From a virus, in IMG/VR virus record IMGVR_UViG_3300035670_000059, positions 49,733-113,732 of that record: a stretch of 64,000 nucleotides of DNA; one strand, 5' to 3'. The notes beneath the pieces were generated by a model, which was not told the DNA's origin, searched no databases, and saw nothing but the letters and a program-made list of their open reading frames with translations. Both the position numbers and the translations under genes were made by a program. This document shows, one piece after another, positions 10,761-61,309 of the stretch. How positions within the stretch are numbered: the stretch's first letter is position 1; each line of letters opens with the position of its first letter.

Positions 10761-12323
10761 GTGCCAAATTGGAAAAAAGTTATAGTATCGGGCTCCGATG
10801 CTAGTTTAAACTCGCTAGAAGTAACCTCTGCTTTTACAGCATCTGGTTTAATATACCCCACAACAGACGGATTAGTCAATCAATCTATAGTAACAGATGG
10901 AGCAGGGAATTTATCATTTGGTAATCCCTATTCTGATAATACAATTGTTTACGGAAAAAATATTTCCGGAACTACTATACTAAAAGGCACCCCTTTATAT
11001 TTTACAGGTAGTGGAACAGCGGGCAACGTAGTAGGTGTATTTCCTGCAGATGCCGGTAATCCTGCTAGAATGCCTGCAGGAGGCATTGCGGGAGAGCAAT
11101 TATTGGATGAGGCTGAAGGTGTTATTTTATTAGATGGCTTTATTAACGGGGTAAATACATCAGCTTTTAACTCTGGAGACCCAGTATATGTAGCAGTAGG
11201 AGGTGGGTATACAAACATTAAACCTACCGGCTCAACTATTTTAATCCAAGCATTAGGATATGTAGAAAAATCCGCAATAAACGGTTCGGGAGTAATACAA
11301 GGTTCTGGTAGGGCAAATGACGTGCCCAACATTCAACAAGGATATACTTGGGTAGGAAATGCAGATGGTGTAGCAACACCTACTGCCACTTCTTCTTTTA
11401 GTGTAGCAAATGCAGTATCTGCCTCGTTTGCTACTAACGCATCAAGCTCTTTAATCGCTATTACAGCCTCTTACGCTCTATTTGCCGCAAACGGTGGTGG
11501 TGGAGGTGGAGGTGGCTCTACAGTAGTACATACCCAGTTAACAGCCTCAACTACGTGGAGTTTTTCCCACAATCTAAACACACAAACTCCACTACTACAA
11601 GTATACAATATAGGATACGAGCAAATTATACCAAACGAAATCGTTAGTATAAACGCGTTTACCTCCGAAATACGATTTGACTATACACAAGCAGGTTACG
11701 CTGTTGCCTCTACAGGTGGTAGTTTAGCAGTTACGGGTTCAACACCTCGTTTAGTACAAACAGTAGCAGCTACAACGTGGTCTTTTGCTCACAATCTAGG
11801 AACCAAATACCCAGGATTTGAAGTATTCGATTCGAACGATGATGTTGTAATACCAGCAGGCATTCACGTAGTGGACGAAAATAATGCAGAAATATATTTT
11901 GCACTTCCTTCTACAGGTGTAGCAATAGCAAACTTTAGTGGTATAGAGGGTGTATTCCCATCTTCATCTTTTGCGTTTACCGCTTCATACTCAGACCAAT
12001 TTAACATAGGTCAAACCCAAACTCAATACGCTACTGTTACCTCTTCTATAAACGGATCAAACACTGTCTTTACACAAGCAACAGGTTCGTACACCTCTGC
12101 TTTCTTCAAATACACAGTAACAAGTGGGTCTAATGCTCGTTCCGGAGAAATAATGTCGGTATGGAATGGAACAACTACAGCTTTTACAGACAACTCCACA
12201 ACAGATATAGGCACAACAACAGATGTAACATCTTCTGTTGCTATATCAGGTACAAACGTACAGTTAAACATGCAAACCAATACCGAGGGTTGGAGAATAA
12301 AATCAATAGCAACATTTATGTAA
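10761..12323 (+). CDS. Tail fibre protein B, with duplicated C-terminal beta domain
   Basis: 520 residues starting at GTG; the N-terminus MPNWKKVIVSGSDASL matches that of fibre A, which fixes the start. Residues about 75-200 form a compact domain (GTPLYFTGSGTAGNVVGVFP...GDPVYVAVGGG) seen in phage fibre proteins. After a poly-Gly stretch (residues about 244-250) a domain of roughly 60 residues occurs twice, each copy starting with T-WSF-HNL. The end has no S74 domain. It is a structural fibre or spike; the duplicated domain is a candidate receptor-binding module. Confidence 0.7.
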   Translation: MPNWKKVIVSGSDASLNSLEVTSAFTASGLIYPTTDGLVNQSIVTDGAGNLSFGNPYSDNTIVYGKNISGTTILKGTPLYFTGSGTAGNVVGVFPADAGNPARMPAGGIAGEQLLDEAEGVILLDGFINGVNTSAFNSGDPVYVAVGGGYTNIKPTGSTILIQALGYVEKSAINGSGVIQGSGRANDVPNIQQGYTWVGNADGVATPTATSSFSVANAVSASFATNASSSLIAITASYALFAANGGGGGGGGSTVVHTQLTASTTWSFSHNLNTQTPLLQVYNIGYEQIIPNEIVSINAFTSEIRFDYTQAGYAVASTGGSLAVTGSTPRLVQTVAATTWSFAHNLGTKYPGFEVFDSNDDVVIPAGIHVVDENNAEIYFALPSTGVAIANFSGIEGVFPSSSFAFTASYSDQFNIGQTQTQYATVTSSINGSNTVFTQATGSYTSAFFKYTVTSGSNARSGEIMSVWNGTTTAFTDNSTTDIGTTTDVTSSVAISGTNVQLNMQTNTEGWRIKSIATFM

Positions 12324-47001: not shown

Positions 47002-48726
47002 ATGAGCACACAAGTAGACACCAGCAAATGGGTTAAGGGTAAATCATATCCTAATTGGATGGACGATATTGCAATTAGCATTATCTCTAAAGGATATCTT
47101 TTACCTGGAGAAGATGTTTATAAGGCTTTTACTCGAGTAAGTAAAGCAGCCGCAAGACGACTTCGTAAACGAGAATTACAGCCTTTATTTTATGAGGCAA
47201 TTGAAAAAAACTGGCTTTGCTTAGCCTCTCCCGTACTTTCTAACTTAGGTACTGAACGCGGGATGCCCATTTCTTGTTTCGGCATTGATGTAGAAGATTC
47301 TATTGAAGGTATTGCTGGAGCAAATTCCGAACTAATGAGATTATCCTCTCAAGGTGGAGGAGTTGGTGTAGGCATGTCTCGTATTAGAGGTAGAGGTAAA
47401 GCAATCAAAGACAATGGCACATCCGAAGGTGTAGTTCCATGGGCTAAAATATTTGATTCCACTATTCTAGCAACCAACCAAGGTTCAGTTAGAAGAGGTG
47501 CTTCTTCTGTTAATCTATCAATACATCACCCAGATATTGAAGAGTTTTTGGGTATTAGACGTCCAAAAGGTGATGTTAACAGACAATGTTTGAACCTACA
47601 TCAATGCGTTGTAATTGATGATAAGTTTATGGACGATGTTGAAAACAAAGAACCTAAAGCATTAAAATTGTGGGGCGAAATTCTAAAAACTCGACTTGAA
47701 ACTGGCGAACCCTACATTATGTACGAAGATAATGTAAATAATGCTAATCCTGAGGCGTACAAGCAAAACAATTTAAAGGTTTCAATGACCAATATTTGTA
47801 GCGAAATTTCCTTGTACACAGATGAATTGCATTCCTTCATTTGCTGTTTATCTTCTTTAAACGTGGCACGTTGGGATGAATGGAAAGACTACAGGTTTGA
47901 AAATGGTATGTCGTTGCCTGAACTATCCACTTGGTTTTTGGATGGTGTATTGCAAGAATTTATTGACCGCGCTAAGGGCATGAAATTCATGGAAAATACC
48001 GTTAGATCTGCAATTAAAGGCCGAGCAATTGGTATTGGGGTACTAGGATGGCATACATTGTTACAAACCAAAGAATTACCGTTTGTAAGCGTTGCTTCTT
48101 CTGCTTTACGTAAACAAATCTCTAAATTTATTTACGAGGAAGCAATTAAAGCTTCTAAAGCACAAGCAATTGAATTGGGTGAACCTGAATGGTGTAAAGG
48201 AACTGGCTTAAGACATTCTCATCACATTGCAATTGCTCCAACTGTAAGTAATGCTCACATTTCAGGTGGTGTATCTCCTTCAGTAGAACCAATTCCAGCA
48301 AATGTTTACAACCTTAAAACCGCTAAAGGGGTGTTTATCAAGAAAAACCGAATTCTTGAAGAACTACTAGAGACTAAAGGCTATAACATTGATAGTGTTT
48401 GGGATCAAATCCTAAAAGATCAAGGATCTGTACTAGGATTGCCAGATTATATCTTGACACAAGAGGAAAAAGAAGTGTTCTTAACATTTAAAGAAATCAA
48501 CCAGTTAGGTATTATTCAACAAACTGCTGTTTCTTATCCTTACGTTGACCAAGCTATTTCTCTTAATTTAACATTTGATCCTAATGATTCTCCCAAACAT
48601 ATATCAGAAGTTCACAAAGCAGCTTGGAAATTAGGAATCAAAACATTATATTATATGCGTACTGAGTCGGTTTTACGAGGTGATACTCTTTCAAGATTAG
48701 AGGATTGTGTGGCTTGCCATGCGTAA
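47002..48726 (+). CDS. nrdA: Ribonucleotide reductase class I large subunit
   Basis: 574 residues. The catalytic subunit keeps the active-site blocks LASPVLSNLG, MPISCFG (redox Cys), NICSEI (Asn, catalytic Cys, Glu), FICCLSSLN (second redox Cys), TLYYMRT (radical-transfer Tyr pair) and a C-terminal CVAC for re-reduction. The N-terminal ATP cone of the usual ~750-residue enzymes is missing, so dATP feedback is probably lost, as in many phage enzymes. A terminator and a GIY-YIG gene follow. Confidence 0.93.
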   Translation: MSTQVDTSKWVKGKSYPNWMDDIAISIISKGYLLPGEDVYKAFTRVSKAAARRLRKRELQPLFYEAIEKNWLCLASPVLSNLGTERGMPISCFGIDVEDSIEGIAGANSELMRLSSQGGGVGVGMSRIRGRGKAIKDNGTSEGVVPWAKIFDSTILATNQGSVRRGASSVNLSIHHPDIEEFLGIRRPKGDVNRQCLNLHQCVVIDDKFMDDVENKEPKALKLWGEILKTRLETGEPYIMYEDNVNNANPEAYKQNNLKVSMTNICSEISLYTDELHSFICCLSSLNVARWDEWKDYRFENGMSLPELSTWFLDGVLQEFIDRAKGMKFMENTVRSAIKGRAIGIGVLGWHTLLQTKELPFVSVASSALRKQISKFIYEEAIKASKAQAIELGEPEWCKGTGLRHSHHIAIAPTVSNAHISGGVSPSVEPIPANVYNLKTAKGVFIKKNRILEELLETKGYNIDSVWDQILKDQGSVLGLPDYILTQEEKEVFLTFKEINQLGIIQQTAVSYPYVDQAISLNLTFDPNDSPKHISEVHKAAWKLGIKTLYYMRTESVLRGDTLSRLEDCVACHA

Positions 48727-56938: not shown

Positions 56939-57958
56939 ATGTTAAAAAATCTAAAACAAAGTATATTCCCATTTATTATAGCATTTTCTGCGCTATCTGT
57001 CAGTGCTTCTGCTGCTTTCTATTCTATAAGTGGGTTAAGCAAACTATTTGCGGGAGCCTCATTTGAGGTAATAGTTATGGCTAGTTCTTTAGAAATAGCT
57101 AAACTAGTAATTGCCTCCTTACTATATCAATATTGGAATACTATAAATAAAGTATTACGTACTTATCTAATGGTAGCTACAGTAATATTAATTCTCATTA
57201 CCTCTATGGGCATTTATGGTTTCTTGTCTGCTGCATACCAAGAAACAGCCAATAAGGCAGGCAATATGGATGCTCAAGTATCTTTGGTAGAAGTCAAGCG
57301 AGACAACATTAAAGAGCAACTAACCGTATACACGCTCGAAAAAGAAAATATCACCAAAGCCATTGCCGATCTACGGGCAGGACTAGCTAACAACATTATT
57401 CAATATAAAGATAAAGATGGTAATATAATCACCTCTACCTCTACAGCTACACGCAACGCTTTAGAAAAACAATTAGATCAAGCAGTAACTAGACAAACGG
57501 ATGTTAATCTTAAAGTTGATGAACTAAATACTCAGCTTTTTGAATACGAAACCCAAATTGTAGAAATTAAAACTGGAAGTGATCTGGCTGGGGAACTAGG
57601 ACCATTAAAATTCATTTCAGGTCTTACGGGTATACCAATGGATAAAATAATAAACGTATTACTTTTAGTCATTATATTTGTGTTTGATCCATTAGCAATT
57701 TCTTTAGTAATAGCTGCTAACTTTGCATTTGCCCAAATAAATCCCGTAAAAGAAGAACAGCAATATGATCCTCTAGATTTGAACAAAGATGGAATTGTAG
57801 ATGAAAGTGAAAGAACAATAACTAAACAAAAAATAGAAGAATTAGAATATAACATTGAAACTAAATCTTTAGGTGGTTGGTGGTTAAAAAAGGTAAAAGA
57901 TCAAATTGATTCTTTAAAATCTAAAATTAAAGAAGAAGACGAAACAAAAACATACTAG
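56939..57958 (+). CDS. Membrane protein with coiled coil and EF-hand-like loop
   Basis: 339 residues. Three N-terminal membrane segments (about 8-30, 38-62, 78-98), a long coiled coil (about 108-215), a further hydrophobic segment (about 237-262), then a soluble tail. Residues 280-291 (DLNKDGIVDESE) have the exact spacing of a calcium-binding EF-hand or dockerin loop. ATG 56939 lies right behind a terminator; an earlier in-frame TTG is inside the terminator. Function unknown. Confidence 0.7.
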   Translation: MLKNLKQSIFPFIIAFSALSVSASAAFYSISGLSKLFAGASFEVIVMASSLEIAKLVIASLLYQYWNTINKVLRTYLMVATVILILITSMGIYGFLSAAYQETANKAGNMDAQVSLVEVKRDNIKEQLTVYTLEKENITKAIADLRAGLANNIIQYKDKDGNIITSTSTATRNALEKQLDQAVTRQTDVNLKVDELNTQLFEYETQIVEIKTGSDLAGELGPLKFISGLTGIPMDKIINVLLLVIIFVFDPLAISLVIAANFAFAQINPVKEEQQYDPLDLNKDGIVDESERTITKQKIEELEYNIETKSLGGWWLKKVKDQIDSLKSKIKEEDETKTY

Positions 57959-57991
57959 TTTGGCTCCCTAAAATAGGGTTCGTACATTTAC
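57959..57991 (+). promoter_or_regulatory. Host-like promoter, TTTG-N20-TACATTTAC
   Basis: TTTG at 57959-57962, a 20-base spacer, TACATTTAC at 57983-57991, and 14 bases to the next ATG. The spacer contains CTCCCTAAAATAGGG, nearly the same as at 61970. Confidence 0.65.
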
Positions 57992-58005
57992 ATCAAATAA
58001 AAGTT

Positions 58006-58509
58006 ATGATTTACTCTCCGACATTTCCAAAACCGTACATCCAAGAAAAGCTCTCCAAGCTTCGCAAGCTAAAATACAACCAATTTAGATGGTGGAGAAT
58101 GTACGACAATCCTGTTTTACCTTTGCCAAATAAGGCTCCATTGATTGATAAAATCTTAAATGGTGATTTTGATTACCCACACTACAAACTCCAGGCTGAA
58201 CTAGTAGAGCACGAGCTAAACGAGCTAGCTCAAAGATGTGGCGGCAATAATGAAATGTTTGGAGAAAAAAGTGCACTAATGCGCACTCGAAGAAAAAGAT
58301 TGCTTGATGATTTTGAAAAAGAAGAAAACGATAAGCTAAAAAGAATATTCAAAGAATTTGAAAAAAACTTTGCTTTATCTAAAGAACAAATTGAGGAAGA
58401 AATGCTAAGATTTGTTGGTAATTTGGGAGAATTTTATTATTATATGGGAGTTAGATACCAAAAAGTACCTAATCCAAACAGACGCGGACGTAAAAAGAAA
58501 AATATATGA
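58006..58509 (+). CDS. Hypothetical protein upstream of the DpdA-like gene
   Basis: 167 residues, basic, mostly helical, with many Arg/Lys and aromatic residues in the first 60 (YNQFRWWRMYDNP) and a Lys/Arg-rich end (NRRGRKKKN). Nucleic acid binding is possible. It overlaps the DpdA-like gene by ATGA, so the two are probably co-regulated from the host-like promoter. Confidence 0.65.
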   Translation: MIYSPTFPKPYIQEKLSKLRKLKYNQFRWWRMYDNPVLPLPNKAPLIDKILNGDFDYPHYKLQAELVEHELNELAQRCGGNNEMFGEKSALMRTRRKRLLDDFEKEENDKLKRIFKEFEKNFALSKEQIEEEMLRFVGNLGEFYYYMGVRYQKVPNPNRRGRKKKNI

Positions 58510-59294
58510 TCAAAGTTTCACATGAAGTACCTAAATGCTTACTAAAAGCATCCCTTGAGTTTAATGACTACCAATATTGTCTACCTCATTTATTAGATCA
58601 GGATACAGCTTATAGAAAGCACTTCTATGATTTTAAAAAATCAGGTGGTTACATTATTATGGACAATTCGTTACATGAACTAGGAGAGGCATATGACCAC
58701 GAACGCTTAATGTTCTGGGTAAATGAGCTTGAACCCGATGAATTTATTGTACCGGATGTTTGGATGGATGTTGAAGCAACAATCCAAAATGCCAAAGAAT
58801 GGATTCAGTTTGAATATCCTAAAAACACTACTCCCGTAGCTGTTGTTCAAGGTAGAAGTTTTCAAGAAGCAGAAGAGTGTTATTTTACGTTGAAACACAT
58901 GGGATACAAGAAAATCGCATTCTCGTATGGAGCGGATTGGTACATGGATAAATTCCACGGTATTCACGTAGATAAAGCAAAAATGATGGGCCGAATATCA
59001 GCTGTAAAGCAAATGTTCCACAATGGTACTATCAAGAAAAATGATAGAGTACACCTTTTAGGTTGTTCTTTACCACAAGAATTTGGATGGTACGAAAATT
59101 GTTCGTACATTGAGTCAATCGATACTTCAAATCCAATTATGGCGGCTTTAGAAGGTATTGGGTATGACGAGTTTGGTTTATTAACAAAACCTAAAGCAAA
59201 CATGAACGATCATTTCTATATCGATATTAAAGATGTAAATTTAAAATTAGTATTACACAACGTAGAAACATTTAAAAAAATTAATGAGTTATGA
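58506..59294 (+). CDS. TGT-like transglycosylase, possibly DpdA (7-deazaguanine DNA modification)
   Basis: 262 residues with the landmarks of the tRNA-guanine transglycosylase barrel: IIMDNSLHELGE (Asp53), EFIVPDVWMD (Asp84), PVAVVQGRS (113-118), KKIAFSYGAD, HLLGCSLPQEF (183 on) and ESIDTSNP with Asp206 as candidate nucleophile. It lacks the zinc-site tail of bacterial TGT. Phage proteins of this group (DpdA) swap guanine in DNA for a 7-deazaguanine base. A QueC-like gene 1.1 kb downstream supports a role in DNA modification. Confidence 0.7.
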   Translation: MIKVSHEVPKCLLKASLEFNDYQYCLPHLLDQDTAYRKHFYDFKKSGGYIIMDNSLHELGEAYDHERLMFWVNELEPDEFIVPDVWMDVEATIQNAKEWIQFEYPKNTTPVAVVQGRSFQEAEECYFTLKHMGYKKIAFSYGADWYMDKFHGIHVDKAKMMGRISAVKQMFHNGTIKKNDRVHLLGCSLPQEFGWYENCSYIESIDTSNPIMAALEGIGYDEFGLLTKPKANMNDHFYIDIKDVNLKLVLHNVETFKKINEL

Positions 59295-59485
59295 TTTCAC
59301 TATTTGATTATTTAGGAAAAGCCGCAGGCGTAGAACTTGGGGCAAAAGTTTACCAATATGCTCTTATTCGTAGGGAAAAAATTGGACTTAGATATGTATC
59401 AACTCTTTCATATAAGGGCCCAATTTCCCTATATCCCAAAGAGTTTTTGGATGAGTTTTTTCTAGTACAAAAATTATTTAGCTAA
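59291..59485 (+). CDS. Small hypothetical protein (64 aa)
   Basis: 64 residues, soluble, basic in the middle. ATG overlaps the DpdA-like stop (ATGA), so it belongs to the same unit. No motif recognised. Confidence 0.6.
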   Translation: MISLFDYLGKAAGVELGAKVYQYALIRREKIGLRYVSTLSYKGPISLYPKEFLDEFFLVQKLFS

Positions 59486-59486
59486 T

Positions 59487-59660
59487 ATGGGACTATTTTT
59501 GAAAAATGCTTTAGATAAAGGAGTAAAAGAACCATCTAATAGATATGGGCTTGTTCCTAGTCAAAAAGATTTAAGAGATACATTAGCCAAAATCTGGAAC
59601 AACCAAGATAATTTAACAAAGGAGGATATTCAAACTCTAATGTATTTATCCAAAAAATAA
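59487..59660 (+). CDS. Small hypothetical protein (57 aa)
   Basis: A short ORF (MGLFLKNALDKGVKEPSNRY and so on) starting one base after the previous stop. It is helical, ending LTKEDIQTLMYLSKK. It fits the tight packing of the operon; function unknown. Confidence 0.55.
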   Translation: MGLFLKNALDKGVKEPSNRYGLVPSQKDLRDTLAKIWNNQDNLTKEDIQTLMYLSKK

Positions 59661-59696
59661 CGTTAAAGAAGTTGTGTGTTTTGCAGGAGGATATAA

Positions 59697-59705
59697 TATT
59701 TATAA
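59697..59705 (+). promoter_or_regulatory. TATTTATAA promoter-like motif
   Basis: Exact 9-mer, 21 bases before the HNH gene. Confidence 0.5.
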
Positions 59706-59726
59706 CCGCCATATAAATACACAACT

Positions 59727-60392
59727 ATGCCAAGCAAAGAATATTTTAGAGAATATCGAAGACGCAATAACCCTAAACTGAAAGAAAAAGAAGATTTAGC
59801 CCAACAGGAAAAAAAACGTTGTACAAAATGCAATGTTATAAAATCTTTTAAAGATTATATCCCTCAAAAAGTTGGATTTATGAGGTTAAAATCCCAATGT
59901 AAAGAATGTGATTTAAAATACGATAAAAATTATCAAGAAAAAACTAATTTCCGATCTAAACGAGATAAAACAGACAAAGTTAAACAATATAGAAAAAAAT
60001 ATATAGCTGAAAATATAGATTGGTGGAGAAAATATGAAAGAGAGTACAGATATGAACGCAGAAAAGAAGACATGTTTTTCAAAATCAAAGGAAATATATC
60101 AGGTCGATTATCTGACTTAATCAATAAAAGAAACTTGTCTACTAATACTACTGAGCTTATAGGATGTAATCGAGAAACGTTTATCAATCATATCGAAAAA
60201 CAATTTACTGAAGGTATGGATTGGGAAAACTATGGTTTAAAAGGATGGCACGTTGACCACATAATCCCTTTATCTTCTTTTGATTTAACCATTGAAAGTG
60301 AGGTAAAAAAAGCTTGCCATTACACAAATCTTCAACCACTTTGGTGGCAAGATAATTTGGAAAAGAGTAATAAAGTTATTATATTTAAATAA
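59727..60392 (+). CDS. HNH homing-type endonuclease
   Basis: 221 residues. A basic N-terminus is followed by two CxxC pairs (CTKC, CKEC), a Lys/Arg/Tyr-rich linker, and the HNH core WHVDHIIPLSSFDL with HYTNLQPLW. It is the closest relative of the HNH protein at 4461. It separates the DpdA-like unit from the queC-like gene and carries its own promoter-like motif, so it may be an insertion in a modification operon. Confidence 0.87.
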   Translation: MPSKEYFREYRRRNNPKLKEKEDLAQQEKKRCTKCNVIKSFKDYIPQKVGFMRLKSQCKECDLKYDKNYQEKTNFRSKRDKTDKVKQYRKKYIAENIDWWRKYEREYRYERRKEDMFFKIKGNISGRLSDLINKRNLSTNTTELIGCNRETFINHIEKQFTEGMDWENYGLKGWHVDHIIPLSSFDLTIESEVKKACHYTNLQPLWWQDNLEKSNKVIIFK

Positions 60393-60445
60393 AGGTTTGA
60401 AGCCCCATAACCTATAAATACCGGGGTGAATTAAATTTATATTTT

Positions 60446-61309
60446 ATGTCAAGTAAAAAACCAAATGTAGTCCTTAGCCTTTCAGGTGGAATGGATAGTA
60501 GCACATTATTATTAAGAGCATTATCTGAATATGATAATGTAATTGCAGTATCTTTTGACTATGGTCAGAAACATAGGGTGGAGCTTGAGCGAGCTCAATC
60601 ACTAGTTGAGTACCTAAAAGAGCAAGGTAAACCTGTAAAATATCAGGTTATCAAGCTTGATGGTTTAACCCCACTACTTAACTCTGCTCTTGTAATGGGT
60701 GGAGATGAGGTGCCTGAAGGCCATTACGAGCAAGACAACATGAAAGCTACAGTTGTTCCTAACCGTAACAAAATCTTTAGCTCAATTGTACAAGCTATTG
60801 CTTTGTCTACTGCTAATCAAACAGAATCTACTTGTGATATAGCTTTAGGTATTCACGCAGGCGATTTTTCAATCTATCCTGATTGCAGAGCAGAGTGGAG
60901 AGATGTAGACGACCAAGCATTTAGAGTCGGAAACTGGGATGTTGGAAGAGTGGGACATTTTACTCCTTATATCAATGTAATGAAATTTGATATCTTAAAA
61001 GATGGAGAAATGCTATGTGAAAAGTTAGGACTAGATTTTGATGAAGTATATTCAAGAACAAACACTTCATACAAACCAATTCAGCACTTGGTAGAAAAAG
61101 AAATCAGTGTATTAGCTAGTCTTAAGGAAATACAGAAAGTTCCAGTATGGTTTAGCGATTATAAATCAGCAGCATCAGTAGAACGTATTGAAGCGTTTAT
61201 TAAATTAGGACGCCCTGACCCTGTAGCTTATGCAAATAATGAAGGTCCAGTAAGTTGGGAAGTAGCTAAAGCGCACGTAGAGCAAGTACTAGCTCAACAT
61301 GGTAAGTAG
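60446..61309 (+). CDS. queC: QueC-like 7-deazaguanine synthase lacking the zinc cysteines
   Basis: 287 residues. QueC turns carboxy-deazaguanine into preQ0 with ATP and ammonia. The PP-loop SLSGGMDSST (residues 11-20), FDYGQKHRVEL and the block GIHAGDFSIYPDCRAEW are typical. The C-terminal zinc site (one Cys in TWSCY, three in CGxCxxCxxR) is changed: Ser208 in TNTSY, and Asp238, Ser241, Ser244 before Arg247. The overall fold should remain, but metal binding is lost or replaced. With the DpdA-like protein it suggests modified guanine in the phage DNA. Confidence 0.85.
   Translation: MSSKKPNVVLSLSGGMDSSTLLLRALSEYDNVIAVSFDYGQKHRVELERAQSLVEYLKEQGKPVKYQVIKLDGLTPLLNSALVMGGDEVPEGHYEQDNMKATVVPNRNKIFSSIVQAIALSTANQTESTCDIALGIHAGDFSIYPDCRAEWRDVDDQAFRVGNWDVGRVGHFTPYINVMKFDILKDGEMLCEKLGLDFDEVYSRTNTSYKPIQHLVEKEISVLASLKEIQKVPVWFSDYKSAASVERIEAFIKLGRPDPVAYANNEGPVSWEVAKAHVEQVLAQHGK

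Follow-up and report, generated by a model that had tools for sequence, protein, structure and literature searches.

Does the phage represented by this stretch carry 7-deazaguanine in its DNA? The stretch (hereafter the window; 64,000 nucleotides, bases 49733-113732 of the 113,732-bp linear virus contig IMGVR_UViG_3300035670_000059) encodes a DpdA-like transglycosylase (P58506, named for the first base of its open reading frame, ORF) and a QueC-like enzyme (P60446), a pair from which a preliminary description had predicted such bases. The tRNA-guanine transglycosylase (TGT)/DpdA fold of the first protein and the QueC signature of the second support this prediction, and we consider it highly probable that the two lead to 7-deazaguanine in the phage DNA and that these genes form the left-hand portion of a phage cluster for 7-deazaguanine DNA modification. 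That phages can bear DpdA-dependent 7-deazaguanine in their DNA, and that it is protective, has been established earlier (PMC6884629).

The AlphaFold2 model of P58506 (predicted local distance difference test, pLDDT, 94; predicted template modelling score, pTM, 0.90) has a TGT-type TIM-barrel fold. VIA-align matches it to T. maritima TGT, Z. mobilis TGT, P. horikoshii arcTGT and the DNA preQ0 insertase DpdA 7ui4 at Z 16.7-17.1 over ~231 residues (17.1 for arcTGT, 17.0 for 7ui4), and all 50 of the matches listed are TGT, arcTGT or DpdA. The TGT barrel read earlier from the letters is thus borne out, the fold search placing P58506 inside the TGT superfamily. The link to solved structures was obtained only with a diverse eight-sequence profile and the fold search: phmmer with P58506 alone returned nothing relevant from the solved structures, a 55-sequence profile found no TGT among them, and when P58506 relatives were compared with TGTs by hhalign, no more than 19 columns aligned, at the LLG/LMG motif. 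No solved structure matches better in sequence than the bacterial DNA-guanine transglycosylase DpdA 7ui4, to which the eight-member profile aligns with HlLG on HLLG and SiDTsnP (SIDTSNP in P58506) on SIDSTTP. P58506 is ~150 residues shorter than 7ui4 (413) and is 13-16% identical to bacterial DpdA, TGT and arcTGT.

Residue 206 is an aspartate, as claimed. Across 55 sequences (window included; relatives 53-93% identical), D53, N54, D84, Q115, H183, G186, D206, T207 and P210 are invariant, which adds the polar residues Asp53, Asp84, Gln115 and His183 to Asp206. Given this invariance, the TGT/DpdA fold and the SiDTsnP/SIDSTTP alignment, Asp206 is a well supported candidate for the counterpart of the DpdA/TGT active-site aspartate; the individual roles of the conserved aspartates are provisional assignments from motif position.

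P58506 belongs with phrog_19058 (E 2e-42), a phage family without a characterised member. The comparison with DpdA profiles that the preliminary description had suggested succeeded in part: P58506 weakly matches the NCBIfam DpdA model (E 1.3e-5, 24.2 bits) but lies below its curated cut-off of 200 and is not a member of that equivalog, which is of the longer bacterial type. Isolate phages gave 32 records with a P58506 relative, headed at 35-36% identity by the Flavobacterium immuto phages (annotated DpdA) and the Campylobacter CP220-type phages, while more remote ones came from phages of Chryseobacterium, Bacillus, Weizmannia, Vibrio and Cellulophaga; in IMG/VR, at least 502 relatives were found by an alignment-based scan. 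The homology to a short DpdA that marks DpdA3, the subfamily of full replacement, is found with gp056 of CP220, likewise a short TGT-type protein (36% identity over 99%), which we take to be DpdA3. The Campylobacter Firehammervirus DpdA was reportedly named DpdA3 in a 2023 Nucleic Acids Research paper.

The same fold would also suit a transglycosylase acting on tRNA, with the pathway feeding tRNA queuosine (Q) or archaeosine and the precursor genes raising Q during infection. TGT itself, a tRNA enzyme, has the fold of P58506, and the window encodes five tRNAs including tRNA-Tyr(GTA), a GUN-anticodon tRNA of the kind that is a Q substrate in bacteria. However, P58506 has only 262 residues and lacks the C-terminal cysteine zinc site of TGT (the five cysteines are at 11, 25, 125, 187 and 199), its top solved-structure sequence match acts on DNA, and a relative comes from CP220, a phage with fully modified DNA (PMC8306585). 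We regard the tRNA reading as quite improbable.

Where would the precursors come from? The preliminary description had noted that QueD, QueE and FolE are missing from the window, and no gene for any of these or for QueF occurs in the window or in the remaining 49.7 kb of its contig (G000). This absence favours a reading in which QueC and DpdA are all that the phage brings and every precursor is drawn from the host. That suggestion is not supported: two close relatives, G001 (the contig of locus L012, 112,983 bp) and G002 (the contig of L013, 46,450 bp), carry syntenic w58006 (the gene preceding dpdA), dpdA (84-90% protein identity) and queC, with queD 4.3-5.3 kb after queC, then queE, folE and a nucleoside triphosphate (NTP) pyrophosphohydrolase, the queD/queE/folE span lying 4-8 kb downstream of queC. 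G001 has in addition a phosphoribosyltransferase between folE and the pyrophosphohydrolase. DNA alignment shows G001 overlapping G000 twice, its right end with the left end of G000 and its left part with the right part of G000; the ~55 kb of G001 between these overlaps (48.5-103.6 kb), absent from G000, holds the precursor genes. G000 is thus incomplete, ending about 2.4-2.7 kb after queC and before the queD/queE/folE site of both relatives, and most simply it lacks the precursor genes because it is truncated there. The genome search proposed earlier therefore came up empty on the window's own contig but found all three genes in its syntenic relatives, and we reject supply by the host as the preferred reading, rating it very remote.

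The gene order is conserved well beyond these two contigs. The common order, w58006-dpdA-queC-queD-queE-folE-NTP pyrophosphohydrolase, is repeated in dozens of aquatic phage contigs, at times with the phosphoribosyltransferase before the last gene. The fetched loci, many of them on short contigs, hold 122 distinct DpdA ORFs, of which 114 are accompanied by QueC, 91 by w58006, 85 by QueD, 77 by QueE, 58 by FolE and 57 by the NTP pyrophosphohydrolase; conversely, QueC, QueD and QueE each occur with all 62 distinct FolE ORFs and DpdA with 57. The two genes conserved after folE (L110:100-513 and 1041-1574) encode a phosphoribosyltransferase (PF00156) and a PRA-PH/MazG-like pyrophosphohydrolase. 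A smaller, immuto-like group has the order QueC, QueD, QueE, FolE, NTP pyrophosphohydrolase, DpdA, formyltransferase and, in some, QueF.

P60446 is QueC-like, as had been claimed (Pfam QueC, E 2.2e-37), scoring 132 bits against TIGR00364 (QueC), under the 150.3 cut-off. Its model (pLDDT 82) has the QueC fold, with Z 17.3 to B. subtilis QueC 3bl5, and it is ~60 residues longer than E. coli QueC. Canonical QueC is defined by SGGxDS, YxQxHxxE, VPxRN and YPDC together with the zinc motif C(x)8CxxCxxC (PMC13329287). P60446 has all four catalytic motifs and none of the zinc cysteines, and this combination, which characterises a whole clade, is the unexpected part of the locus. The catalytic motifs are found in immuto QueC and in 85 of the 86 phage relatives from metagenomes, one failing the YPDC pattern, and the zinc motif is absent from immuto QueC and from all 86. 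Outside phage-like contigs, the closest cellular relatives (~42-48% identity) are from Marine Group II archaea, Pirellulaceae and one Neomarinimicrobiota contig, and likewise lack the zinc motif. In our tree, in which several reference branches are long, the phage and cellular proteins without the motif form one clade (100/99). The zinc cysteines are kept in QueC of CP20, CC_R7, CAjan, Godines, nt-1, phi38:2, VpKK5, HCTV-5 and Youna2. QueC of Pseudomonas phage HTN2 also lacks them, apparently through an independent loss; Iggyvirus Iggy, a possible congener of HTN2, is reported to carry the deoxynucleoside of 7-cyano-7-deazaguanine (preQ0), dPreQ0, according to a citation in PMC11008142. No description of the clade was found in the literature searched, a search that reached few subscription papers.

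Does a QueC of this kind still do the normal job? Eight genomes of marine archaea and planctomycetes have no other full-length QueC, further matches being confined to ~60 P-loop positions. All eight encode QueD, its gene lying close to queC in the archaea, and seven encode a TGT. Of 121 QueC ORFs in the fetched loci, two have the zinc motif, and both are replacements: in two phage clusters (L150 and L151) the queC slot holds a zinc-type protein 57% identical to QueC of Vibrio phage nt-1. This in-place displacement argues that the protein it displaced does the normal QueC job, and together with the eight cellular genomes it argues for the same function without zinc. For synthesis of preQ0 by P60446, the displacement and the surrounding genes are indirect support.

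A rival is that P60446, lacking zinc, stops at the amide, making 7-amido-7-deazaguanine (ADG), so that the phage DNA would carry the corresponding dADG. The zinc-type QueC group nearest to the clade in the tree is that of the Campylobacter phages CP20 and CC_R7, and Firehammervirus phage DNA holds dADG (PMC8306585); the lack of QueF in G000, G001 and G002 also fits. But CP20 and CC_R7 themselves retain the zinc motif, so the presence of dADG does not follow the loss of zinc, and the idea that this loss causes dADG is weakened. Marine Group II archaea having the zinc-less protein as their sole full-length QueC also have an archaeal-type TGT, and archaeosine synthesis requires preQ0. The replacement in L150 and L151 is like that of nt-1, whose DNA has mainly dPreQ0 (PMC6884629). 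We consider an arrest at the amide possible, though doubtful. A preQ1-type base is rejected for the window phage, since QueF (PF14489) was not found in G000, G001 or G002.

Three further observations concern zinc and the clade. In L206, L209 and L245 (Marine Group II archaea), the chromosomal QueC without the zinc motif has a C-terminal fusion domain that resembles methionine-R-sulfoxide reductase (MsrB), recognised by eye from the pattern SGCGWPSFH...CDAHLGHVF...RYCINSASL. QueD in 91 of 92 locus ORFs (e.g. L012:17374-17835) has HGY in place of the canonical zinc-site HGH, as it does in immuto and in Cellulophaga phages phi13:1 and phi38:2. A general avoidance of zinc by the cluster is unsupported, because the C.HH motif is intact in 61 of the 62 FolE ORFs.

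The best-supported reading is that a DpdA3-type enzyme exchanges guanine for preQ0 (or ADG) after replication, as in systems already known; what reaction takes place, which base is inserted, how much guanine it replaces and what purpose this serves are inferred from the evidence above. The cluster would comprise w58006, dpdA and queC and, beyond the contig end, queD, queE, folE, the phosphoribosyltransferase and the NTP pyrophosphohydrolase. FolE, QueD and QueE convert GTP to 7-carboxy-7-deazaguanine (CDG) in the established pathway and would do so here. The QueC homologue would turn CDG into preQ0, possibly releasing ADG, and the DpdA3-like enzyme would swap guanine for either in finished DNA. 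By analogy with TGT, Asp206 would attack the nucleoside C1', giving an Asp-linked intermediate and releasing guanine. The modified DNA would be protected from host restriction. More speculatively, the phosphoribosyltransferase could recycle the freed guanine, and the pyrophosphohydrolase could act on dGTP, for example to remove it. As to the base, preQ0 has about an even chance, ADG somewhat less, and another base a small one.

Several points weigh against this exchange as drawn. P58506 scores far under the NCBIfam DpdA cut-off (24 against 200 bits); P60446 is without the zinc motif, which makes its product uncertain; G000 ends before queD, so that queD, queE and folE are placed in the window phage by synteny; and the CP220-type relatives hold dADG, not dPreQ0, with 100% of dG replaced by dADG in CP220 itself (PMC8306585).

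Among the closest known systems is that of Flavobacterium phages vB_FspM_immuto (MW353175-7, NC_055915), with QueC 62.5%, DpdA 36%, endolysin 76% and holin 60% identical to the window's. These phages share the set of FolE, QueD, QueE, phosphoribosyltransferase and NTP pyrophosphohydrolase, and their DpdA is annotated beside QueD, QueE, FolE and QueF. They differ in having their own QueF, which is absent from the window's contig and its two relatives, in a formyltransferase-like gene after dpdA, and in a queC about 15 kb upstream of dpdA. In Firehammervirus the genes are dispersed around dpdA, and CP20 has a zinc-type QueC with altered YxQxHxxE and YPDC motifs.

The features of the locus are collected in the Table, where the positions of the four larger ORFs agree with the preliminary description; all genes lie as it claimed, but it overlooked the conserved upstream gene and the loss of the zinc motif. 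The product of w58006 has no Pfam or PHROG match. Its family shows NYNxFxWWR and NGDFD motifs and a C-terminal tail, which is basic and in many relatives of RGRP type (AT-hook-like), and the gene adjoins dpdA in most loci; it is a candidate accessory protein or DpdA partner. The small ORF after dpdA has a homologue at the equivalent place in G001 (47174-47371).

Table. Features of the dpdA-queC locus (window positions)
Feature	Position	Strand	Description
w58006	58006..58509	+	167 aa; conserved protein directly upstream of dpdA, 4-bp overlap
dpdA (P58506)	58506..59294	+	262 aa; putative DpdA3-like DNA-guanine transglycosylase, candidate nucleophile Asp206
small ORF	59291..59485	+	64 aa; overlaps the end of dpdA
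P59727	59727..60392	+	endonuclease VII/HNH-like gene; intergenic mobile insert, outside the pathway
queC (P60446)	60446..61309	+	287 aa; QueC homologue of the clade without the zinc motif

The HNH gene is present as claimed, between the small ORFs after dpdA and queC (phrog_1035, E 7e-19). It is missing from L012, L009, L008 and L018, and among the close relatives examined only L007 has it; we therefore reject it as a working part of the pathway. The window and L007 are 97-100% identical in DNA over about 59658-60557, including the first ~110 bp of queC, and ~61-94% identical further into queC, so the gene looks like a recent mobile insert, brought in by homing with co-conversion. Elsewhere in the window, a virion-protein-like ORF (10761-12323) partly matches the HNH endonuclease family phrog_24148 in its middle-to-C-terminal part. 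Among the relatives, L012 has a transfer-messenger RNA gene (L012:13268-13645; tag GEEKSSFTFEDALAFVGADYAVAA) among its tRNAs, and a family B DNA polymerase is encoded by two neighbouring ORFs (568 and 319 aa; L110:1795-4454; G001 57794-60456), possibly a split polymerase.

The window phage is probably a new member of the known phages with DpdA-dependent 7-deazaguanine, a group in which the immuto phages are already so annotated. We tentatively propose, as a possibility rather than an expectation, that preQ0 is made by a zinc-independent QueC subfamily without the metal site that defines QueC, found in hundreds of aquatic phages and also in Marine Group II archaea and planctomycetes, and that in phages this subfamily acts together with a short DpdA, the AT-hook-like w58006 as a conserved partner and a phosphoribosyltransferase that salvages guanine, so that most or all genomic guanines are replaced. 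The locus indicates that a large group of aquatic phages carries DpdA3-like 7-deazaguanine modification along with all its precursor genes; in experiments this modification has been seen in few isolated phages. The QueC clade without zinc ligands challenges the textbook view of QueC as a zinc enzyme, and the conserved neighbours (w58006, the phosphoribosyltransferase and the NTP pyrophosphohydrolase) are candidates for enabling large-scale guanine replacement.

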